A stretch of 37,856 bases of DNA, from positions 1 through 37,856 of the IMG/VR virus record IMGVR_UViG_3300020281_000007. One strand, written 5' to 3'. Every line of letters starts with the position of its first letter. The stretch's first letter is position 1. This document shows, piece by piece, positions 4,014 to 37,190 of this stretch. A program made the translations under genes and the position numbers. The notes under the pieces were generated by a model. That model made no database searches. It had not been told where the DNA came from and saw only the letters and a list, made by a program, of their open reading frames with translations. Origin of the DNA: a virus.

Positions 4014-7000
4014 TTAAGCGTTCCAGTTTTCATGTAGATGGAAGAAACCATTTAGGCTATTAGGCATACCTGCCTGATTCCATGAGTCACTTCCTCCTGT
4101 ATATATATAACCACTTTTACCCATTAATAGCCAAGCATTTTCACTATATGAAGTTCCGACAAAAGAGTAACCTAGAGGGCATATAGGTTCTGGTTGGTTA
4201 TATAAAGGTATGAATGAAGTTACATACTGTTGGCTATTTTCAAATGCAGAACCATTATCATCTTCTAAGTTTTCAACCATATTATAATTCCAATAACCAC
4301 AGTAGAAGATAGAACCAAACTCATCTATCATTACTACTCTTGAATATGTTTCATCTGAATAGGTATGAGCCATTATTGTAACTATCTTACCAACTTTAAA
4401 TTTAGTTTTATTAGAACCTGTCTGCAAACTATCTAACGTCATATCTGTAGTTTCGTTAGGTCTGGAGTTGTTGACATTCTTCGATAAATCTCCAAAGTCT
4501 CTAAATTTAATTTCTGCACCAAACCAGTTACCTTGAGCAGATCCACTTTGTCCAGAAGTGGTAGAAGTATTTGTTCCTTGCTGACCATAGTTATTAGAGC
4601 CTGTAGCGTATATCTTTTGTGCGTGGCCTGTAGTACCGCCATCAGTTATGAAATGCAGAACAGGATAACGACCACCACTTATAGACATATAGATAACTTT
4701 TTGGTTATTGCTATTCCATAAGGTAGAAGCATTTGTTAAACCTATAGGAGTATTTTGTGAAGTACTCGCTGTTGAATTATAAGAACCAACTCTAATACCA
4801 TGTGATTCTCTTTGACCCATGAAGTAAACAATTCCTTCAGTTGTTAATACCCAAGTTCTAGTAATGTCATTACCTCTTTGTGAACTAATAACGTGAACAA
4901 CTTTTTTGTTTTCTAATAACGAACCAGAAACACCTGTTATATGCTGTGGTGTTGTTTGTTGCGTTGTATTACCAAGACCTAGCTGACCATCAGTATTTCT
5001 ACCCCAACCCCATAGTTTGCCTGTTTCTGTAATGGCATACATACAACCATACTGATAACCTGTACCTGTTATGTAAACGATCTTTTCTCCACCGAAAAGA
5101 CTCATAGGCATTTCTCTATTGTAGTAATTAGCACTTGTAGTTCCATCTCCTAGCTGACCATAGCTGTTATAACCAAACCTATATAACTTGCCTTCTGTAC
5201 TTAAGAAGTAATTACAGTCGTTAAAGTCATTTGTTGTAGTATCCATAGTATGAGCAGACCCTATGTGCATCTGCGTAATCTTTGGATAGTTAGCACCTGT
5301 TAGCTCAGTACCAGAGTTATCGTAAAACGATAATGCTAAATGAATATACTTTGTAGATGATTGTCCATCTCCTAATATTCCATCAGCACCATGACCAGAT
5401 GCACTAACCATGCCATTTTCATATAGGAAATATTTTTTAGAACTACCTCCATGTATCTGCATAATCTTTGGAACAGCTACTTGTGGTACACCATCAGCAT
5501 CTAAATATCCAAGATCATTACCATTTAAATCTGTTAAAAACTTAGCGTATGCACTATCTCCTGCTAAAGCTTTTTTCCACCATAAAGGTGTACGGAAGTT
5601 ACTTCTATATGGATAATCAGTAGAACCACCAATAGTACTTCCTGTTCCTATTCCTGCCCCATAAAAGTAACCACTTCCATCATGGTACATATTTCCCCAT
5701 TGATGATATTGACCTGCTGTATCTATGTATCCACCTTGCCTGTAAGCATTACAAGGAGTGCCATATTTAAATCCACGACCTGATTCTTTTAGATATTGAG
5801 GTAAAGGTAAAATAGCTTCTGTGTAATTATTGACATCTTGATTTACAAAGTGATTATATGGCGTCTTCCTTCTTGTTTCCAGAGAAGGCATCTTCTTAGA
5901 ATAAGTACCTGCTGCATCTGTCCAAGCAGGTTCACTTGCAGGGTCAGTTAAGGTTAATATTAAAGCATCAGCTTGGTTAGCTTCGTTTCTTATAATGACT
6001 TGACTTAGTGTAGTTTTTGCATCTGGGGTATATGTAATTGAACCGCCATTTGTAACTGATTGTGGCTGTGCTGTTCCATCTGTTATTCTTCCTGCTGAAC
6101 CTGCCCCACTATATCCAGTAGCGTTAGGGTCTTTGATTGAGTAAGTTAATCCATCAGCAGGGAAAGTAAATGTATAAGACTTACCTTTAGATATTTTTAC
6201 ACTACCACCTGCAATTCCGTCATAATAAAGAGTCGGTGTATTGCTGCTCTTTCCATTTGTAAACTGACCTCTTGCCATACCACTATGAACACTACAGTAA
6301 TATCTCATGTTGTAGTAGGCAGTTGGGTTAACTGTCCAGACTATTGTTGCTCCTGCTTGTCCTGCTGTTCCGTTTCTTACAATTCCGTATTGTGTTTCAT
6401 TGTATATTGCTGAATAGCTAGTACCTGAATGAGCAACTTCAAAAGCAAATACATGACTTGTGTTACTTGAGTCACTAACATCAAAAGTAATTACATCTCC
6501 AATATTTGCAACTATCGTAGGTCTTTCAACTCCTCCAATATGAAACTGGTTTTGACCATTAACTGCTGCTACAGTTACAACTTCTGTTCTAGTAGAAGAT
6601 ACAGCGTTATCATCTCCAAGTAATATCTCCTGTCTAATTGTTGCTGATACATCTATAGGGTGGTAAACAAAATTATTTTCGTTTGGTAAGTCTTCGTTTG
6701 GTGCATCAATTACAGTTAATCTTGAACCTAAGTTTCCAATAGGTAATCTTTTATTTGTACTTCCATCATTATCTCTTACGAGCATATCTCCTGAAGTTGT
6801 TAAAACATCTGCACTAGGAGCATTAACAATAAGAGTCCAATTAGAAGGTACAGCAGCAGGGTTAGTTGTAACGTATGTTCCTGAATTATTACTTACAGTT
6901 AATATATACGCAGCATTTTGCCATCTAACTATATCTCCTTTGTAGTAAGTAGTTCCTGAAACCCAATCTCCTTTCCAATTTAAACCTTCTGCCATCTTAT

Positions 7001-28730: not shown

Positions 28731-31133
28731 TTATGTAAATATATATGGTGCTGTCAACACATCTGTAATATCAAACTCCCCCATCAGTAGTGCAGGTGGT
28801 AATCCCTTGCTATTACTTAATTGATCTGCTGCTTGATGATGTAAGTTATCTAAATTATTATCACTATATATGTAGAAGAATGTCTGCTTAACACATTCAA
28901 TAAACCTATCAAGTTCAGCAGCAGGACTACCAAAGCAATCATGAATAATACAGAACTGTTCAAGACCCATCTTGCTTGCTTCAACCAAGCTTAACTGTAG
29001 GTGTGCAGCATCAAAGGAATGTATGTAATTACTTGGGAAACCTTGCAGTTGTTTTCTCTTGTTGACTAGCTTCTCGTCAGGCTCGGCAAGACTTAGATAA
29101 ACTGTTTGATTACTAAGCTTGGTCTTGATTCTTTTAGTCTGGTTTGTATAGTACTTCTGCTGTACCAGAAACCCAGAGGGAGTATGCCATGAGATAGTCT
29201 TGTTCTCTTTGTTGAAACATAGAGCTATCTTTGACAAGTAATTTAAAACCTGATAACTCTCAGGGCATATATCTTTTACAGCCTGTTCGATTATTGCAGC
29301 AAGGTAAAAGTTATTCTTAAAATTTTTTGCCATTGAAATATTTTTTGCGACAAAATATTTTTCTATGTAGTTAGCTATGCCAAAGGTCGTTGAGTTATAT
29401 GGAATCATGAGTACTGGTTTCTTTATAAACTTCCTAGTCAACAGCTTTGAAATCTTATTCCAGTTCTTGCCTTGCGTTGTTGTATCTGTCTCTAGTATTT
29501 CTATGACTCTAGCTAGAACATCTTTATATAAATCTTGTGGCTTACTTGCTCTCTGTAAATTTACTTTCTTTGCTAGTACTTCAGATGAAATCAACCCTGC
29601 GATATGTTGGTATCCATTGTTAGTACCATCAAGACAACAACAGAAACGTGAGACATATCCACCCTTCAATCCCACCTGACAAAATTCATACCACTCTCTA
29701 CACCAAGCAAGGAATTGCCAAGGGTCTTTTGCCTGACCCCATATATCTATGTTGTCTAGTGGATTGAGTGATACCTGTTCAGCAAAGTCTTGGCCTTCTA
29801 TGTAAGCCCACTCTAGCCTTTCGTCATAGCTCAACTTGTTATAACCGAAAGCATTAGCTCCTGCTATCGCCAACCAATCTGCATCTTTCTTAGTCTTGAT
29901 AACAGCCCCTTCATAGAATTGATGTAAGGCTCTGGCAATATCAGTTCCTTGTGGGTGGAAGTGTGCAGTTACAGGATAAAGTCTTGAAGTAAAATCCATT
30001 TGATAAACGTGAAAAAATTTTTCGCCAAGATAACTTTTCGCTGTGTCTATCATTGAAAGTATTTGGAATCTCTTTACTTTGTTTGCGTGGTTTGTATCAT
30101 GAATTAAACCTGCGTGGTAACTCCATTGTTTTGTTACCTCCTTATCCTCTCCAAAACCTTCAGGCTTTACTGGTAATTCAAGTGGCTCTCTATCAATCAA
30201 TCCCCCTACTTCTATTCTTTCTTCCCAACAATATACAAGAGTATCAAACACAAATTTATTTACCCCCCACGCAGTACTTGACGCAAGGTTTAGAGCCTTT
30301 AGACATACTGTTAAGTTTTCTTCTTGTAACTTTTTTAATGTCTCTTGATTAGTAGTCTTGATAGCTGAAGTCCTGAGTCTCTCTGTGTAATAACCTCCGT
30401 CAAATAAAGTTGTATATTGTTTAGGCTTATCGAAGCAAGGAAGATATAAGGGATAAGCAGCTATGCGGTTAGCTCTGTTCTTTCTTATCCACTTGTCAGC
30501 TACATCTGTGAAGACCACACATGAAGTAGTAGTCTTGCCAACCCTTTTGTTTATAAGCTTTATCATTCCAATATGATTAACAACTAAGTCAATCAGAACC
30601 ATACCAATTTTTAATTTGTTTTCTTTGCTCCATGTCTTGAACTCTATCCCCTTCTTACTCATGTGTGATCTAACCATATTCTTTTTATAACCTTGGTGGT
30701 TTGTATCTCTGGTATGATGTTGGATTGCTTTAAAATGTTTAGGGTCTTCCTCTTCAAAGATTGTGTATCGCATTTCATCTTCCAACATCTGACCTATGTT
30801 GATTGCTACTTGTGTTGTTACTTTCCCAAGTGACACGTTGTCTATGATGACCTTGAAAGTTATAAAAGAAACCACGTCAATATCAGGGAATTGATTTAGG
30901 TATAAAGCAGCTAACGATTTGACTCCGACTTGTCCACTCAAAGATTTATATATATAGTTCTGAGTCTGTCTTGTTAATTCCTCTAGCCCTGCTTCAATCA
31001 TGTTGCGAGCGTAGTATGTTTCAGACTCCCTTCCCTGCTCCCTGAGTTTATTGTTCTTACTGATCTTGTTATACCCTGAGATGCTAAAGATACTTTGCTC
31101 AAGGTCTAGTTGTTTCTTGCTTGGTTCACTCAT
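28731..31133 (-). CDS. Single-subunit DNA-directed RNA polymerase (T7 gp1-like, 800 aa)
   Basis: Transcribes middle and late phage genes. Catalytic landmarks: Asp380 and Arg384 in QMDFTSRLYP (T7 DxxGR motif); motif A Asp502 in CCLDGTNNGYQHIAGL; motif B Lys571/572 and Tyr579 in KKPVLMIPYNSTTFG; motif C Asp732 in IIHDCFGSPAAE. NYIHSFDAAHLQ follows the specificity-loop region. It is shorter than T7 RNAP (883 aa). Two departures: T7's R-G before the Arg is T-S here, and the Gly after the motif B Tyr is Asn. The ATG overlaps the preceding gene by 8 nt. Its place directly after the integrase region is typical of cyanopodoviruses. Confidence 0.95.
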   Translation of the reverse strand: MSEPSKKQLDLEQSIFSISGYNKISKNNKLREQGRESETYYARNMIEAGLEELTRQTQNYIYKSLSGQVGVKSLAALYLNQFPDIDVVSFITFKVIIDNVSLGKVTTQVAINIGQMLEDEMRYTIFEEEDPKHFKAIQHHTRDTNHQGYKKNMVRSHMSKKGIEFKTWSKENKLKIGMVLIDLVVNHIGMIKLINKRVGKTTTSCVVFTDVADKWIRKNRANRIAAYPLYLPCFDKPKQYTTLFDGGYYTERLRTSAIKTTNQETLKKLQEENLTVCLKALNLASSTAWGVNKFVFDTLVYCWEERIEVGGLIDREPLELPVKPEGFGEDKEVTKQWSYHAGLIHDTNHANKVKRFQILSMIDTAKSYLGEKFFHVYQMDFTSRLYPVTAHFHPQGTDIARALHQFYEGAVIKTKKDADWLAIAGANAFGYNKLSYDERLEWAYIEGQDFAEQVSLNPLDNIDIWGQAKDPWQFLAWCREWYEFCQVGLKGGYVSRFCCCLDGTNNGYQHIAGLISSEVLAKKVNLQRASKPQDLYKDVLARVIEILETDTTTQGKNWNKISKLLTRKFIKKPVLMIPYNSTTFGIANYIEKYFVAKNISMAKNFKNNFYLAAIIEQAVKDICPESYQVLNYLSKIALCFNKENKTISWHTPSGFLVQQKYYTNQTKRIKTKLSNQTVYLSLAEPDEKLVNKRKQLQGFPSNYIHSFDAAHLQLSLVEASKMGLEQFCIIHDCFGSPAAELDRFIECVKQTFFYIYSDNNLDNLHHQAADQLSNSKGLPPALLMGEFDITDVLTAPYIFT

Positions 31134-31332
31134 GAAGTAAACCTCTCAACGCTTCAAGTTCTTGTATCTTTTTTACACACAATTCAACAGAGTTATTGAT
31201 CTTATTTTTCTTTGCTAAATCATTTTCTTTTTGTGCTAAATCAGTTAAATATTTTAAAAATTTTTCTTGCTCGTTTAACTCTTTTCTAATTGAGTCATTG
31301 ATAAAAAAGATTTGACTATCGGTAAATTTCAT
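31126..31332 (-). CDS. Small coiled-coil protein between integrase and RNA polymerase (68 aa)
   Basis: Almost entirely helical and charged: SIRKELNEQEKFLKYLTDLA then LCVKKIQELEALRGLLHE, with heptad-like Leu spacing. There is no membrane or DNA-binding motif. The start overlaps the integrase stop by one base (TAATG) and the stop overlaps the RNA polymerase start by 8 nt, so its expression is locked between the two. The function is unknown; it could be a small partner or regulator of either neighbour. Confidence 0.72.
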   Translation of the reverse strand: MKFTDSQIFFINDSIRKELNEQEKFLKYLTDLAQKENDLAKKNKINNSVELCVKKIQELEALRGLLHE

Positions 31333-32171
31333 TAGTTCAATACCTCCACTACTGAGTGCATAGAGTTAGGGGCAAGATGAGAATACTTCTCGGTCATCTT
31401 TACATCTTCATGACCTAACCAATCTCTGACGATCAAGAGATGTACTCCACGTTGTACTAACCTTGACCCTGCTGTATCTCTAAATAGATGTATCTTATAC
31501 CACTTGTGTTTCTCATAACCTAGTTCTTTCTTGACCTTACTGAACACACTCTCAGCCCAATAATAATTATGGTCGAATACATAGTCCAAGGTATTGCACT
31601 TGTCATAATATGGCTTGATAATTTCTCTTACTTTGTTGCTCATTGGTACAGTATTTGGCCTTCCGTTTTTCCTGTATTGAAATGTAATCTGATTCTTTTC
31701 AAAGTCAATAAATCTTTTCTCAAGAGTGAGTAGCTCCATGACCCTGCACCCTAGATCAATCAAGCACTTGAATACATCTCTGTGTTCATGATGACCTAGC
31801 TCTGTGACCTTATCCAATAGCTCAATTTCCATGTCATCTGTTAGGTAATGAACCTTCTTGTTTTTCTTTACCCTCAATGGCTTGGGAAACTCAGGCATTG
31901 TTAAGTGTCCATCATCTTTGCAATCATCAAGCACTAACTTGAGATGCCCCATCTTTTTATTAACTACCTCGTTACAATTGGGTCTTGCTTTGTTGTAGTC
32001 ATTCATCTTGCTAATCATACTTGTAGTTATTTTATTTACAGGTATGTTTCCAAGAGCTTCGACATTGTGGTTCATGCTGTTGAGAAAATCTTTAGCTGAG
32101 ATGTCTCCGTTCTTTCTCCTCTTGTAGGTAATGCGAGCAGCTTCCCTTAGTGTTGGTACTTTCTTTTTCAT
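31332..32171 (-). CDS. Tyrosine-family integrase (279 aa)
   Basis: Site-specific recombinase. Core-binding domain about 1-100, catalytic domain about 105-279. The full active set is visible: Arg143 in DLGCRVMELLTL, Lys168 in QYRKNGRPNTVP, His228 and Arg231 in IHLFRDTAG, His254 in DWLGHEDVKM and nucleophile Tyr263 in TEKYSHL. The Shine-Dalgarno AAAAGGAGACAATG is strong. Similar integrases occur before RNA polymerase in marine cyanopodoviruses. No tRNA-like attP core, excisionase or repressor was recognised nearby, so lysogeny is possible but not demonstrated. Confidence 0.93.
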   Translation of the reverse strand: MKKKVPTLREAARITYKRRKNGDISAKDFLNSMNHNVEALGNIPVNKITTSMISKMNDYNKARPNCNEVVNKKMGHLKLVLDDCKDDGHLTMPEFPKPLRVKKNKKVHYLTDDMEIELLDKVTELGHHEHRDVFKCLIDLGCRVMELLTLEKRFIDFEKNQITFQYRKNGRPNTVPMSNKVREIIKPYYDKCNTLDYVFDHNYYWAESVFSKVKKELGYEKHKWYKIHLFRDTAGSRLVQRGVHLLIVRDWLGHEDVKMTEKYSHLAPNSMHSVVEVLN

Positions 32172-32932: not shown

Positions 32933-33504
32933 TAGACAACTCCTACTGCGTCAAGTCTTTCTCTGGTTTCGTCAGTAATAACTGCATTCTCCAAGAGAAT
33001 AAGGTACGCAAGCTCAAATCTGTTGTCACTCTTGTAGCCTTTTACCTTGTCTCTTATCCAAGGTTGCTTGATGATCTCCATGTATTCGGAATCATTACAA
33101 ACTTCCCCTCGAATAAACTGCCACTCATCTTGCATCTCAGATACAAAAATTAGATACTCTTCCATGTGGTCGAAGTCATCTCCTAACCACTCGTAGCCAT
33201 TAGTACAAACGTAGCCTTCAAGGTCGTCATAGTCCATGTCCATAAGCTCTTGTAATAGCTCTGGGTTATTGACTACAAACTCTTCTCCCTTCTGATAAAA
33301 CTCTATGCACTTATAGAATTTGTTATCTGTTTTGAACAAGTCATACTGATCTTTAGTAAGACCTGATGGAGCCATGTCCATAGTTACTAGAACGTAACGT
33401 AATCTTTGCTCTGAAGATTCATAGAAACCTTGGTTGTTGTAACCTTCAGTTTCTAATTCAACGTCAACGAATGCGTCTAAGATTTGTTGCTTTGTGAATG
33501 TCAT
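32932..33504 (-). CDS. Strongly acidic early protein (190 aa)
   Basis: The start at 33504 follows AGAGGAGAGATGTC and overlaps the previous stop (ATGA); the frame stays open to 33528. The protein is strikingly acidic, with runs such as MDMDYDDLEG, GDDFDHMEEY and MQDEWQF, and many aromatic residues. Acidic early phage proteins can mimic DNA (T7 Ocr is the classic), but no Ocr similarity is visible, so this is only a possibility. No enzyme motif or membrane span is seen. Confidence 0.75.
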   Translation of the reverse strand: MTFTKQQILDAFVDVELETEGYNNQGFYESSEQRLRYVLVTMDMAPSGLTKDQYDLFKTDNKFYKCIEFYQKGEEFVVNNPELLQELMDMDYDDLEGYVCTNGYEWLGDDFDHMEEYLIFVSEMQDEWQFIRGEVCNDSEYMEIIKQPWIRDKVKGYKSDNRFELAYLILLENAVITDETRERLDAVGVV

Positions 33505-33671
33505 GACATCTCTCCTCTGTACTTCCATACTTCCCCTTTCTTTGGGGCAGGTACAGACTTGAGAGCTTCCCAGATTTTAGAAATGTCTTTAGCATTTTCT
33601 TTGGTTATCTGAATACCAATAAGACCATCATCAATTTGTTTGATGTCATCTCTGTAATCGTGGTCAACCAT
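33501..33671 (-). CDS. Early-region small protein (56 aa)
   Basis: MVDHDYRDDIKQIDDGLIGI ... ENAKDISKIWEALKSVPAPK, ending KYRGEMS. A strong Shine-Dalgarno, CAGGAGGAAAATTTA, precedes the ATG, and the stop overlaps the 190-aa gene (ATGA). It is the first gene after the internal terminator at 33711-33740. It is small and mixed-charge. The function is unknown. Confidence 0.74.
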   Translation of the reverse strand: MVDHDYRDDIKQIDDGLIGIQITKENAKDISKIWEALKSVPAPKKGEVWKYRGEMS

Positions 33672-33710: not shown

Positions 33711-33740
33711 AAAAAGGGCATACCTGAATACAGTATGCCC
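33711..33740 (-). terminator. Rho-independent terminator inside the early operon
   Basis: On the minus strand GGGCATAC pairs with GTATGCCC (8 bp, 9-nt loop), followed by UUUUU. It lies 17 nt after the stop of the 119-aa gene, so it should attenuate transcription toward the integrase and RNA polymerase. The arms plus loop read CATAC-CTG-AATA-CAG-TATG, nearly the palindrome of the early promoter. Confidence 0.8.
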
Positions 33741-33756
33741 GAATAGAACTAAGAAG

Positions 33757-34116
33757 TCAACTCTCGTCTATTGTCTCAACTAAGAAGTACCAATAGTCGT
33801 AGTCGTATCCTGCTCCTATGATTAGCCCTCGCTTATTCTTATGCTTGGTCTGTCTAGCCATCAACTGATAGCAAACAAGTTTAGCATTTTCAAAGTCAGA
33901 TAAAGACTCATCATTTTTCTTCTTGCTTACTATAGGTTCTGAACCATAGTTAACAAAGGTAGCTGTCCATCTTTTACTTGTTAAAGCTTGATGAACTTTG
34001 ATGCAAGGGTAGAAATAAAACGTCTTGTCATCTTTCGGAATCTTATCCGACTTGTGACCCAAGGTCACAGTTGAATTTAAGAAGGGAACTTTATTCCCCA
34101 TTCTTCCGTAGTACAT
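33757..34116 (-). CDS. Early-region protein of unknown function (119 aa)
   Basis: MYYGRMGNKVPFLNSTVTLG ... FYFYPCIKVHQALTSKRWTA ... RGLIIGAGYDYDYWYFLVET. The sequence alternates like a mixed beta protein rich in Tyr and Lys. ATAGGAGATTTAGTACT precedes the ATG. A twin-hairpin element (34150-34192) lies in the leader between this gene and the coiled-coil gene upstream, and a terminator follows. No family is recognised. Confidence 0.73.
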   Translation of the reverse strand: MYYGRMGNKVPFLNSTVTLGHKSDKIPKDDKTFYFYPCIKVHQALTSKRWTATFVNYGSEPIVSKKKNDESLSDFENAKLVCYQLMARQTKHKNKRGLIIGAGYDYDYWYFLVETIDES

Positions 34117-34149
34117 AGTACTAAATCTCCTATCGTTTAAGGTTAAAAG

Positions 34150-34192
34150 TGAGTGAGTAATGAGTCACTCAGGCAAGCTCCGAAGAGCTTGC
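34150..34192 (-). repeat. Twin-hairpin element D
   Basis: Minus-strand RNA: first hairpin GCAAGCTC-TTCG-GAGCTTGC (8 bp closed by the very stable UUCG tetraloop, 34192-34173), then TGAGTGA/TCACTCA (34171-34150). It has the same two-hairpin layout before an A-rich leader and ATG as elements A-C, but an unrelated sequence. Confidence 0.7.
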
Positions 34193-34205
34193 AAGCGTGC
34201 TTCAA

Positions 34206-34634
34206 TTAGTCAACTGGAAAGAACTCTGGATACTCTTCGGAGAGTCTCTTCTCTATGGTCTTGTAGTCCATATCAAAGTCTAAGATCATCTTCTCCCTTT
34301 CGGTTTTAAGATTCTCTTTTTTCTCCTTGGTTCTTTTGATTTTATCTTTGAGATTTTTGATCTCATCTTGATAATATTTAACCCGATCATCACAGCCTTG
34401 GATTGATTCATCTTTCCGTTGTAGCTGTAAGAAGTATCCGTTGCGGTCATAACCTTGGCGGTCATAGTTGTCATCATCTAAAGCTCTTTCAAGATCATGA
34501 TGCCTACAGTTAAGGTCATCATCAAAGTGTTGAGTCTCATCTGAAGCTTCCCATAGTTCATACATTCTTGAGTGAAACTTATCAAGAATCTTGAAAGACT
34601 TTTCAGCCCACTTGAGATAATGTCCTGCCTTCAT
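34206..34634 (-). CDS. Early-region coiled-coil protein (142 aa)
   Basis: The N-terminal half is helical with an Asp-rich middle (HFDDDLNCRHHDLERALDDD). About residues 78-118 form a dense Lys/Glu coiled coil (DEIKNLKDKIKRTKEKKENL). A textbook ribosome-binding site AGGAGGTTAATC precedes the ATG. Element D follows the stop. There is no catalytic motif, and the function is unknown; it could be a structural or host-protein-binding factor. Confidence 0.74.
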   Translation of the reverse strand: MKAGHYLKWAEKSFKILDKFHSRMYELWEASDETQHFDDDLNCRHHDLERALDDDNYDRQGYDRNGYFLQLQRKDESIQGCDDRVKYYQDEIKNLKDKIKRTKEKKENLKTEREKMILDFDMDYKTIEKRLSEEYPEFFPVD

Positions 34635-34636
34635 GA

Positions 34637-34816
34637 TTAACCTCCTATGTAAATGTGAGTGAAGTTGTCATAGATAAAATCTAAATCTTTAACAGAAATT
34701 TCTATGAGCTTTGGATTATCTGTAGTGAGATATTCAATGCCGATACTTGCTATGTCATCAGCATATTGAGAGTCAACAAGAATGCCTGTTGAAGTCTTGC
34801 AATCTGGTACTCTCAT
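34637..34816 (-). CDS. Early-region small protein (59 aa)
   Basis: MRVPDCKTSTGILVDSQYAD ... DDIASIGIEYLTTDNPKLIE ... DFIYDNFTHIYIGG. A very strong ribosome-binding site (GGGAGGGAGGT) lies 1-2 nt before the ATG, and an ATGA overlap couples it to the preceding gene. It is acidic and soluble, with no recognised family. The coding call rests on the start signal, coupling and full use of the gap. Confidence 0.72.
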   Translation of the reverse strand: MRVPDCKTSTGILVDSQYADDIASIGIEYLTTDNPKLIEISVKDLDFIYDNFTHIYIGG

Positions 34817-35007
34817 ACCTCCCTCCCTTGGTAGTTTAGGAAGTAGCTCTTTCTTGTTAGAGCGTGCTTAAAACAAAGCACAGTTTCAGTTCCGTATTGG
34901 AACATAATCTCGTGACCTGATCGCATCATTTGACCAACTCTATTGTTGGTAGAAAGAGCTATTGCGAAAGCTCTTTGATGATCGAACATTGTAGGATTGA
35001 ATCCCAT
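34813..35007 (-). CDS. Early-region small protein (64 aa)
   Basis: MGFNPTMFDHQRAFAIALST ... NNRVGQMMRSGHEIMFQYGT ... CFKHALTRKSYFLNYQGREV. It is mixed charge with no motif. AAAGGAGAAAAAAATT precedes the ATG, and twin-hairpin element C lies in the leader just upstream. The function is unknown. Confidence 0.72.
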   Translation of the reverse strand: MGFNPTMFDHQRAFAIALSTNNRVGQMMRSGHEIMFQYGTETVLCFKHALTRKSYFLNYQGREV

Positions 35008-35029
35008 AATTTTTTTCTCCTTTTGTAGT

Positions 35030-35087
35030 TTTTAAATGAAGTCATAGAGGACTTCATAGAAGGTGGTTAACCCTCTAAGAAATCTTC
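35030..35087 (-). repeat. Twin-hairpin element C
   Basis: Minus-strand RNA: hairpin 1 TAGAGGGT/CACCTTCTA-type stem with one G-U pair (35077-35057, spanning the stop of the 73-aa gene), then hairpin 2 ATGAAGTC/GACTTCAT (35057-35036). Closely related in sequence to elements A and B. Confidence 0.75.
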
Positions 35088-35288
35088 TAACTGTTTAGAA
35101 GTGTGAAAGGTTGAAGGATAAATCCTTCTTAACTTGTCATAAAGACCTATCAAACAATATTGGTCGGCAGTTCCTAACCGATTCATTTTTGTATGAAGGA
35201 TTTGATTTAAGCAAACGAAGAGCATATCTCTTTCGTCTTTGGTTAAAAATTCATGAGAATACTCAATGAAATTTGCGTTGATGTCCAT
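35067..35288 (-). CDS. Early-region small protein (73 aa)
   Basis: MDINANFIEYSHEFLTKDER ... DMLFVCLNQILHTKMNRLGT ... DKLRRIYPSTFHTSKQLEDF. Likely all-helical and soluble. No Shine-Dalgarno is evident (AAAAAACT before the ATG), unlike its neighbours. It lies between twin-hairpin elements B (upstream) and C, the latter running over its last codons. The function is unknown. Confidence 0.7.
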   Translation of the reverse strand: MDINANFIEYSHEFLTKDERDMLFVCLNQILHTKMNRLGTADQYCLIGLYDKLRRIYPSTFHTSKQLEDFLEG

Positions 35289-35300
35289 AGTTTTTTAAGC

Positions 35301-35361
35301 GATAAAGTACGAAGTCATAGAGGACTTCAAGGAAGGCTTTGCAGCCCTCCTAGAAACCTTC
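35301..35361 (-). repeat. Twin-hairpin element B
   Basis: Minus-strand RNA: AGGAGGGCT-GCAA-AGCCTTCCT (GNRA-type loop, one G-U pair, 35351-35330), then GAAGTC/GACTTC (35328-35311), inside the shared frame GAAGGTTTCTAGGA ... CTTTATC. It fills the gap between the ArdC-like gene and the 73-aa gene. Confidence 0.8.
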
Positions 35362-35365
35362 TTGA

Positions 35366-36328
35366 TTAAGCTTCCCCAAGAATTGTATTAGCAGCCTTGG
35401 AAGAGTAAGCGAAGACCTTGAATAACTCTTGAGCAGGGTTCTTTGAATCTTTGATTCTAGATGCCCAACCTCCGAGGTATGAAGCATGGTTCTGAGTATC
35501 GCAAGTGATTTGTAATCTGTTAGCGATCAAAACAGCTGAGAACTCCGCAACCAACTCTTCTTGTGGTCTGTATTTTGAGTACTCATTGAGCCATTTACGA
35601 TTGAGTCTATCTTTGTGACCTGTAGCATGAGCGAACTCATGAGCTAGGGTTGAAAGATAGGCTTCATCATTCTTGAAGTCTTCTCTGTTTGGCATGGTTA
35701 CTGAGTCAATATCGTCACGATAGTAAGCACTATCTGAGCCATGATTGAGAGAACCTTTTAGCTCATCTTTGAAGATCATTAAACGATCGTGAGCAGCCTT
35801 GCATCTTTCAGCAAGTGGCCTTGCATTCTCAACACATTTAGTCTTGAAGCTTGCAATTTTTTGGTCTAGTTTTTCTTGAGCTTTGTCATCAAGTCCGACT
35901 AGGTCGGCAATATTGAAAACAGTTGCACCCTTGAAAGTCATCTTCATGTAAAATTCAGGGTTGCCCTCTTTGTCAAGAATAGGGTTTCCGTTGTCATCTT
36001 TAGCATCTATCCGTATTGGATTAGGTCGCACTATGCGAGCAGCCTTAGAGCCTTTTCTAGGTACACAATTAAACTCTTTTTTAGCCTGTTGGTAGCCAAT
36101 CCAACAAGGCAATTCGTAACCTTTTGAGAATTGATACATCTCAAGAATAATTACGTTCATGCCCTGATAACGATTACCAGTAAGGAAATTAATGTGACCT
36201 TCGGAAGAGCTAGGTGTCCAAGGTTTAGACCAAGGATTTCTAGAATCTTTGTTCTCTTCAAGAATCCTCATGAAATCATTAAGGATTTCTTCTTCAACTT
36301 TTACTCTTGGTTTTGATGAAATAGTCAT
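35366..36328 (-). CDS. ArdC-like antirestriction protein with zincin metallopeptidase domain (320 aa)
   Basis: First gene of the early operon. Numbering is from the ATG at 36328 (MTISSKPRVKVEEEILNDFM). The N-terminal domain (about 10-150) fits the ArdC ssDNA-binding module: NPWSKPW, then FLTGNRYQGMNVIILEMYQF, LPCWIGYQQAKKEF and KGSKAARIV. The C-terminal domain has the zincin motif LAHEFAHATGHKDRL, His230-Glu231-x-x-His234 with TGH, and a downstream RPQEELVAEFSA glutamate. ArdC proteins protect incoming DNA from restriction. An upstream ATG at 36355 falls in twin-hairpin element A and is less likely. The position matches T7 gene 0.3 (Ocr), suggesting a shared early anti-restriction job by an unrelated protein. 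Confidence 0.88.
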   Translation of the reverse strand: MTISSKPRVKVEEEILNDFMRILEENKDSRNPWSKPWTPSSSEGHINFLTGNRYQGMNVIILEMYQFSKGYELPCWIGYQQAKKEFNCVPRKGSKAARIVRPNPIRIDAKDDNGNPILDKEGNPEFYMKMTFKGATVFNIADLVGLDDKAQEKLDQKIASFKTKCVENARPLAERCKAAHDRLMIFKDELKGSLNHGSDSAYYRDDIDSVTMPNREDFKNDEAYLSTLAHEFAHATGHKDRLNRKWLNEYSKYRPQEELVAEFSAVLIANRLQITCDTQNHASYLGGWASRIKDSKNPAQELFKVFAYSSKAANTILGEA

Positions 36329-36338
36329 GGTTTTTTTT

Positions 36339-36398
36339 GATAAAGAATGAAGCATGAGTGCTTCAAGGAAGGGTCATAAATCCTTCCTAGAAACCTTC
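36339..36398 (-). repeat. Twin-hairpin element A in the early leader
   Basis: Minus-strand RNA: AGGAAGG/CCTTCCT (36388-36366), then TGAAGCA-CTCA-TGCTTCA (36365-36348), within the same flanking frame as element B (GAAGGTTTCTAGGA ... CTTTATC). It ends 10 nt before the ArdC-like ATG at 36328. Confidence 0.8.
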
Positions 36399-36406
36399 AG
36401 GTTTTG

Positions 36407-36446
36407 ACTACTAGCAAGTGAGCCTTGCCAATTTGCTGCTAGTAGT
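36407..36446 (-). repeat. 10-bp inverted repeat in the early leader
   Basis: ACTACTAGCA pairs perfectly with TGCTAGTAGT around a 20-nt loop. It would form a strong hairpin in the early mRNA leader just before element A. No U-run follows, so it is not a terminator; RNA stability or processing is likely. Confidence 0.7.
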
Positions 36447-36586
36447 TATGAAATACTCTTTTTGTGGAGCGTGACCTCAGTTCCTACCCGACCTTAATTC
36501 GTATCGGTATAAGAGCGTGCCTGACGCAAGTGACAGCCCAATAGCTCCGCCAATCCAAGTATTTATTTTTCAAGGTACATTCATAG

Positions 36587-36614
36587 ATTACACATACTGC
36601 ATTCAGTATGTCAA
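36587..36614 (-). promoter_or_regulatory. Early sigma70 promoter with an operator-like palindrome in its spacer
   Basis: On the minus strand a perfect -35 TTGACA (36614-36609) is 16 nt from TGTAAT (36592-36587), a five-sixths match. Transcription would start near 36580 and give a leader of about 250 nt before the ArdC-like gene. The spacer holds the palindrome ACATACTG-CATT-CAGTATGT (36592-36611, plus-strand reading), touching both hexamers, so a dimeric repressor there would block polymerase. Confidence 0.75.
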
Positions 36615-36656
36615 GTATTTATATATAGATTCATTTAGAACTGCTTAACATTTTGT

Positions 36657-36707
36657 TGTAATTGATAATCCCATTTCTTCTAATCCCTTGCACTACAATC
36701 AATTACA
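36657..36707. repeat. 10-bp inverted repeat upstream of the early promoter
   Basis: TGTAATTGAT (36657-36666) and ATCAATTACA (36698-36707) are perfect inverted copies 31 nt apart. The spacer has two TAATCCC direct repeats. It may be a protein-binding site or replication/packaging signal; its role is not decidable from sequence. Confidence 0.6.
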
Positions 36708-36802
36708 GGATTTGTAGTACATTTGTACCTATCTCTCTGGTAAGCGGTTTTTTGGTTTTTACTAGCTTCTCTTTTGGTTTATTTTTTGTCTTCTTTTGGA
36801 AT

Positions 36803-36854
36803 CCCTATATATATATTTTTATTCCCTATGACCCATATATATTTTTTGACCCTA
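36803..36854. repeat. AT-rich imperfect tandem repeat in the left end
   Basis: Two imperfect units of CCC-(T)ATATATAT-ATTTTT-N-CCCTA lie head to tail. The tract would melt easily. In T7 the primary origin is a promoter followed by an AT-rich stretch, so an origin role is possible but not shown. Confidence 0.5.
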
Positions 36855-37171
36855 GCCCCTAACCGATTAAAAAGAAAAATGAATGCAAGCTAGAAATTTT
36901 GGCCGACAAAGAGCCTCAAGAATAGTAGTAATATTCTCAAATCCTAGTGATAGCAGCACTTTTGACTAATTGATACTTAAATTGTCAAGAAATTCAAAGA
37001 AAAAAAAATTTTCGATACGGGGTAACTAAGTTTCCGAGAGAGTGTAAAGGGCTTCAGATTTTTTCGCCAAATTTTTTTCTGGATAAGATCACACAGGAAA
37101 ATCTTTGTACGGAATGGATAGACGCCACCCAGAAAATCCTAGTGTAATCTTAATGTGAGAACTGCGAGGTA

Positions 37172-37190
37172 TCTCCTATAGTGCAACCTA
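37172..37190 (-). promoter_or_regulatory. T7-promoter-like site at the end of terminase (phi-OR/phi-OL position)
   Basis: The minus strand reads TATTAGGTTG then CACTATAGGAGA (core 37183-37172). The T7 consensus is TAATACGACT then CACTATAGGGAGA, so the core matches except for one missing G, and five of the ten upstream bases match. It begins at the terminase stop codon and reads into the gene-free left end, where T7 has its replication promoters. Confidence 0.6.

Follow-up and report, generated by a model that had tools for sequence, protein, structure and literature searches.

Bistable hairpin RNA elements at early-gene boundaries of T7-like cyanophages: candidate RNase III-type processing sites

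The RNase III sites of phage T7 (R0.3, R0.5, R1, R1.1, R1.3 and others) are placed ahead of an anti-restriction gene, in its leader, as well as between early genes, and when folded they present an upper stem, an internal loop and a lower stem. By the T7 cut coordinates attributed, for sites other than R1.1, to Dunn and Studier, the cut falls 33-41 nucleotides (nt) from the start of the lower stem (33-37 nt in most of the sites in which our scan found this layout). R1.1, 60 nt long and with a 4/5 internal loop, is cut to pieces of 47 and 13 nt (PMC6121014). Two further kinds of structure are comparable in part, namely the ompA- and papA-type 5'-terminal stem-loops, which stabilise mRNA by way of a base-paired 5' end that keeps RNase E off, and the Rfam family freshwater-2 (RF02980), a cis-regulatory candidate with tandem hairpins directly before a AAAGGAGAAAA-AUG start region. 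Here, these systems are compared with a family of RNA elements of which four, termed A to D, lie in the early region of the IMG/VR virus record IMGVR_UViG_3300020281_000007, whose 37,856 bases constitute the window. Its genes include those for a T7-type RNA polymerase, an integrase and the terminase large subunit, besides one for an ArdC-like anti-restriction protein, and its early block runs on the minus strand in the order ArdC, small open reading frames (ORFs), integrase and RNA polymerase.

Each element consists of five segments in the order a-b-b'-c-c', in which b and b' are the arms of hairpin 1, and c and c' those of hairpin 2. The segment c can pair upstream with a, so that the lower stem P1 (a/c) and the upper stem P2 (b/b') form one hairpin of about 20 base pairs (bp), or downstream with c', forming the hairpin P3, and the two folds are mutually exclusive. 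The two consecutive hairpins of the original prediction are thus present but not independent: the ten bases preceding hairpin 1, which it overlooked, are the segment a, complementary to c; hairpin 1 is just the upper half of a long hairpin that excludes hairpin 2, and the whole is a three-strand competition with two states. In element B, for example, AGAAGGTTTC pairs with GAAGTCCTCT at 9 of 10 positions. Across about 50 elements, P2 typically has 7-12 bp and P1 forms 8-9 of its 10 pairs, with a junction mismatch between them, giving the T7-type outline of a hairpin of about 20 bp whose upper and lower stems are separated by an internal loop or mismatch. The predicted energy difference between the two folds is small (-1.4 +/- 1.4 kcal/mol in 34 elements), the long hairpin being the better one in 31. 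That the elements form a structured-RNA family, and that this family is bistable, we regard as highly probable.

All four window elements lie on the minus strand, the strand of the early transcripts, and A, B and C were confirmed at the predicted places before start codons, folding as had been described. Element A (36348-36399; covariance model, expectation value (E) 1e-12) is in the leader of the ArdC gene, with a at 36399-36390, P2 arms at 36388-36382 and 36372-36366, the junction at 36365|36364, c beginning at 36364 and c' at 36354-36348. Element B (35310-35362; E = 4e-13) lies between ArdC and the ORF at 35067-35288, with its junction at 35329|35328 and c' at 35316-35310, and element C (35036-35088; E = 8e-11) precedes the ORF at 34813-35007, with its junction at 35056|35055 and c' at 35043-35036. 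A DNA search matches these three to one another at 77-79% identity (E from about 1e-7 to 1e-6), and the exchange of GAAGCA/TGCTTC in A for GAAGTC/GACTTC in B and C is a real paired change that keeps the stem. Element D (about 34148-34217; E = 1e-4, outside the training set) precedes the ORF at 33757-34116; its P2 is GCAAGCTC-TTCG-GAGCTTGC, its junction is at about 34171|34170, c' is at 34156-34150, and its outer stem is long and irregular. D had been described as keeping the layout with unrelated sequence; the layout holds, but the sequence is not unrelated, its c/c' pair GAGTGA/TCACTC being common to elements in the related contigs L023, L024, L012 and L013. Fold z-scores against dinucleotide shuffles are -3.0, -3.9, -3.5 and -2.7 for A to D, and the full architecture is matched four times in the early region of the window compared to 0.35 times in shuffles. 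Dinucleotide shuffles served as the background control, as reversed sequence keeps hairpins and is unsuitable.

Related contigs were gathered by ArdC, RNA polymerase and integrase searches, encompassing IMG/VR relatives and the closest isolate, P-SCSP2 (OM416780; host Prochlorococcus MED4), which shares 64% identity in RNA polymerase and 60% in ArdC. Sequence profiles and a structural scanner located two to four elements in most early regions compared to 0-0.4 in shuffles; a few further scanner matches, within coding sequence or at terminators, were left out of the element count. Together, about 50 elements were found at early-gene boundaries, and they fall in at least four sequence classes. 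In class 1, which includes A-C of the window, P-SCSP2 and others, the c/c' pair reads GAAGTC/GACTTC, GAAGCA/TGCTTC, GAAGCACT/AGTGTTTC, GAAGGACT/AGTACTTC or GAAAGG/CCTTTC. The D-type elements carry GAGTGA/TCACTC, with P2 occurring in three different sequences. Class 2 (L026, L029, L032, L033, L035, L037, L046 and L061) has GATTCC as a and GAGTC/GACTC or GAATC/GATTC as c/c', and class 3 has GAGTGGCTC/GAGTCACTC. A covariance model (R1) built from 26 elements on P1+P2 only scores A-C at E values of 1e-10 to 4e-13 and class 3 at about 2e-3 to 6e-3, and it recovers the untrained D at 34152-34204 (E = 1e-4) together with its orthologues in L017, L020, L021 and L022, all likewise outside the training set (E 1e-4 to 3e-4). 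The covariance search across cyanophages that had been suggested as a check bears out that structure is kept in relatives. Beyond them, R1 finds nothing significant in P-SSP7, P-SCSP1a or T7 (best T7 match E = 1.8, in the wrong place), and nothing convincing was seen at early-region gene boundaries of P-SSP7, P-SCSP1a, Syn5, SS120-1, HTVC011P, HTVC120P or CRP-125.

Both pairings are kept by compensatory change, and the proposal of a structure so maintained is supported. Among 26 distinct elements, P1+P2 pairs are formed in 94.2% of alignment cells, 11 of 18 pairs show changes on both sides, and the covariation score is 0.41 compared to 0.17 for shuffled and at most 0.13 for slid alignments. 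P1 pairing is 83%, compared to 72% when arms are swapped between elements, and P3 pairing, counted by script since MAFFT placed c' one base off in some rows, is 85% compared to 67%; for each helix, none of 5000 swaps reaches the observed value. Because the alignment rows are related, the cell counts are not independent events; what counts as independent evidence is the recurrence in several unrelated classes, together with the swap test. As a control for circularity, P1+P2 hairpins were collected with no requirement for P3, and P3 was counted as present at a score of 5 or more. P3 is present in 93% of the 46 such hairpins located 30-75 nt before an ORF start; the figure falls to 24% when the downstream sequence is shuffled and to 34% when it is swapped. 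Among the 14 hairpins found elsewhere there is no excess (21% vs 18%). Pairing also persists at orthologous places with different sequence: below ArdC, the c/c' pair is GAAGTC/GACTTC, GAAGC/GCTTC, GAAGCACT/AGTGTTTC, GAAGGACT/AGTACTTC or GAAAGG/CCTTTC.

The transcribed strand folds better than the opposite one (73 vs 41 G-U pairs, Wilcoxon p = 0.014), an asymmetry that lends modest support to a role as RNA. It also counts against elements that act at the DNA level, as protein-binding sites, phage promoters or junctions for the recombination of gene cassettes, a reading to which the arrangement of the segments would otherwise lend itself, as a and c' repeat each other imperfectly in direct orientation, with c as their inverted copy. 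Moreover, elements within a single genome differ wholly in sequence yet keep the pairing, and the elements stand on the coding strand before ORFs. A point in favour of recombination comes from the interval between B and the next gene, in which one gene plus its own element is present in the window and in L017 and absent in L020-L022; BLAST finds no relation between the inserted genes of the window and L017. One gene with one element makes up the unit, and such gene-plus-element cassettes come and go at this place (window 35036-35362). Overall, we consider a DNA-level function very improbable, while the elements may also act as recombination joints, with recombination there perhaps a by-product.

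The position of the elements at gene boundaries is regular. Relative to the start of P1, the upstream stop codon mostly falls at -6 to +15 nt; the distance from c' to the ATG is mostly 19-36 nt (median 28), and the leader in between is A-rich and open. Genes for at least eight unrelated groups of early proteins have an element in front of them, and elements occupy both the leader of the early operon and the boundaries between early genes, as the T7 sites do. The closeness of the stop codon to a, together with the near-equal energies of the two states, would suit a translation-coupled switch, in which a ribosome stopping at the end of the upstream gene covers a and allows P3 to form, while untranslated RNA adopts P1+P2 and is cut or exposed to decay. 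Such coupling appears quite improbable, given that the leader element A keeps both helices with no upstream gene, and that element C overlaps coding sequence so that the stop codon (35069-35067) of the ORF at 35067-35288 falls in its P2 loop. The translation switch offered in the original prediction is likewise not favoured, no Shine-Dalgarno sequence or start codon being sequestered.

The closest correspondence to T7 concerns the register of the junction. In A-C and most of the relatives tabulated, 33-39 nt separate the start of P1 from the junction; D differs, its outer stem being irregular. The 13-nt 3' piece of R1.1 fits UAU^GAUUGACCUUCUU, i.e. UAU^GA (the caret marking the cut or the junction), and the junction reads ^GA in 50 of 50 elements and UAU^GA in 12 of 50 (five needed a one-base shift), so that UAU^GA is common to T7 R0.3, R0.5 and R1.1 and to these 12 elements. 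When T7 was scanned blind, R0.5 and R18.5 were among the matches, the background being about five per strand. The suggestion that the elements are RNase III-type sites thus fits the anatomy, with upper stem, junction and lower stem in the register of the T7 R sites and the junction at the place where T7 is cut; the cleavage itself, the enzyme, the exact cut and any stabilising effect are what we infer.

We regard, with moderate confidence, T7 RNase III-type intercistronic processing combined with 5' capping by strand exchange as the best single mechanism. During transcription of the polycistronic early RNA, a-b-b'-c would fold first as the long P1+P2 hairpin because c' has not yet been made. 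Host RNase III would then cut on the 3' side of the junction, directly before the invariant GA that opens c, whereupon c, freed from the cut duplex, would leave a and re-pair with c' as P3. The upstream mRNA would end in the P2 hairpin and be guarded from 3' exonucleases, and the downstream mRNA would start at the first pair of P3, its base-paired 5' hairpin shielding it from 5'-end-dependent RNase E, with about 28 unstructured nt between this hairpin and the start codon. Host components for such a scheme appear to be available: full-length RNase III matches were found in nine of ten picocyanobacterial genomes, most of them slightly below the curated cut-off, and an RNase III transcript is present in MED4 (PMC5082946), while no phage-encoded RNase III was found in the window. 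A base-paired 5' monophosphate is a poor substrate that slows RNase E (PMC3997798), and RNase E rises in MED4 upon P-SSP7 infection (PMC9692554), so base-paired 5' ends would be useful. Placed at the very 5' terminus of the processed mRNA, with its first G paired, P3 would resemble the ompA- and papA-type stem-loops; unlike these, it would not be pre-formed, since its 5' arm would stay in the processing hairpin until the RNA is cut or the strands exchange.

Several observations weigh against this mechanism. The internal loops of T7 sites are larger and asymmetric (4/5 nt in R1.1), whereas the junction here is usually 1x1, sometimes 2x2 or 3x3, and not of the R1.1 type; with the usual 1x1 mismatch, a double cut by RNase III is possible. 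T7 sites are mostly devoid of a P3 counterpart, with one seen in R1.1 and perhaps in R0.5, R3.8 and R18.5. The T7 sites also have a common core, AAGGTC/GGCCTT, whereas the phage elements fall in at least four unrelated classes, and given the R1 search of T7, no sequence or ancestry in common with the T7 sites is indicated. The early region of P-SSP7 is without elements despite the same host, MED4, so not all podoviruses of MED4 require them. Part of the P3 signal could arise from constraint on a and c, with c' resembling a through duplication; the arm-swap test argues against this source. A simple duplication artefact was rejected, because pairing persists in at least four unrelated classes and also where orthologous places differ in sequence.

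An uncut element could also be of use, with P2+P3 or P1+P2 in the intact mRNA acting as a twin-hairpin insulator that blocks the spread of decay or keeps the ribosome-binding region open. P2+P3 is indeed nearly as stable as P1+P2 in most elements, and the open, A-rich leader from c' to the ATG would fit, but insulation leaves unexplained both the a-c complementarity kept with covariation and the T7-like register with its invariant junction GA, and we consider it unlikely. Mutually exclusive hairpins are, on the other hand, the usual anatomy of a transcription attenuator, with P3 as terminator and P1 as anti-terminator or the reverse, and P3 of A and B, each with a weak T-rich tail, appears in a terminator scan. 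In most elements, however, neither P3 nor P2 is followed by a U-run (tails such as CTAACCAC, ACAAACCA and CTTGTAAA), stems of 6-7 bp with about three G-C pairs are weak, and placing attenuators ahead of nearly all early genes would throttle the operon; attenuation thus merits hardly any credence. A terminator role was excluded for most elements because they have no U-run, and GC-rich stems followed by U-runs were not what was found.

These elements are a real structured-RNA family, best read as a novel form of the T7-type intercistronic processing sites, set apart by the extra P3 hairpin. A wider proposal, put forward tentatively and with slightly more doubt than belief, is that in an abundant group of ocean phages nearly every early gene is preceded by a bistable three-strand module in which processing and capping hairpins share a strand and one cut finishes both mRNA ends, that this pairing plan arose anew or was rewritten in unrelated sequences, and that it may reach other marine T7-like phages such as S38-C3. 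P-SCSP2 belongs to the MPP-C cyanopodoviruses, a group without a DNA polymerase gene to which almost half of surface-ocean cyanopodovirus reads are reported to belong (PMC9860041). As far as the literature searched shows, early-mRNA processing in MPP-C phages is undescribed, and no description of such elements was found in that literature, outside which most subscription journals lie. If the proposed mechanism is correct, T7-style early-mRNA processing would extend to cyanophages in a new design in which the cut itself builds a protective 5' cap, bearing on how phage mRNAs survive the rise of host RNase E seen for P-SSP7. It would also provide base-exact predictions for early mRNA ends, in P-SCSP2 for example at the G of TCT^GAAAGG (record position 36288), the junction of an element that precedes the gene with its start at 36337. 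Synthetic operons, too, would gain a compact part with which to insulate genes.

The Rfam comparison yielded no family at gathering threshold. Element C with its ribosome-binding region (35005-35101, minus strand) gives a full-length match to freshwater-2 (31.5 bits, E = 0.006-0.034) that does not reach the gathering score of 49.9, and no other element of the window nor five relatives match. Freshwater-2 differs from the elements in sequence and in having an extra 5' hairpin, and may be worth re-examining for competing pairing. Outside the family, S38-C3 (AP013548, L173), an ArdC-bearing marine T7-like phage, has two boundary hairpins with element-like stop-to-start geometry and unrelated sequence, one directly before ArdC (L173 7838-7926) and the other at the boundary 6772/6697 (6697-6772); because the shuffled background is higher here (0.8), these are a lead only.

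With regard to the genes around the elements, the first early gene encodes the ArdC-like anti-restriction protein (35366-36328, minus strand; Pfam ArdcN 6e-19, MPTase-PolyVal 1e-28, PHROG 7245), which has a P-SCSP2 homologue. Its start in the ORF list, 36355, is an ATG inside hairpin 2 of element A, and 36328 is the likely start codon. The following genes likewise run on the minus strand: the small ORF that separates B from C (35067-35288) forms with C the gene-plus-element cassette absent from L020-L022; homologues of the ORF following C (34813-35007) are preceded by an element in seven contigs, and those of the ORF following D (33757-34116) in five. The integrase (31332-32171, minus strand) is a context gene, and the T7-type RNA polymerase (28731-31133, minus strand; Pfam RNA_pol 5e-84) ends the early block.

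Between the terminase and ArdC genes, about 780 AT-rich bases (36400-37180) contain no clear gene and are presumably a host-promoter region or the genome end. Within the early block, a strong intrinsic terminator (GGGCATAC...GTATGCCC then TTTTT; 33716-33740, minus strand) lies between the ORF at 33757-34116 and that at 33501-33671. The P-SCSP2 group likewise has, inside the early block, a 12-16-bp hairpin followed by T7-8 (AAGTCAACC...GGTTGACATTTTTTT), located at L082 36845-36900, at L052 5828-5906 and in L054, with equivalents in L049 and L053. This hairpin is followed by a promoter-like AT-rich stretch (TAATAATAGATATGG / TATACTAAATATAG), suggesting a possible terminator-plus-promoter pair.

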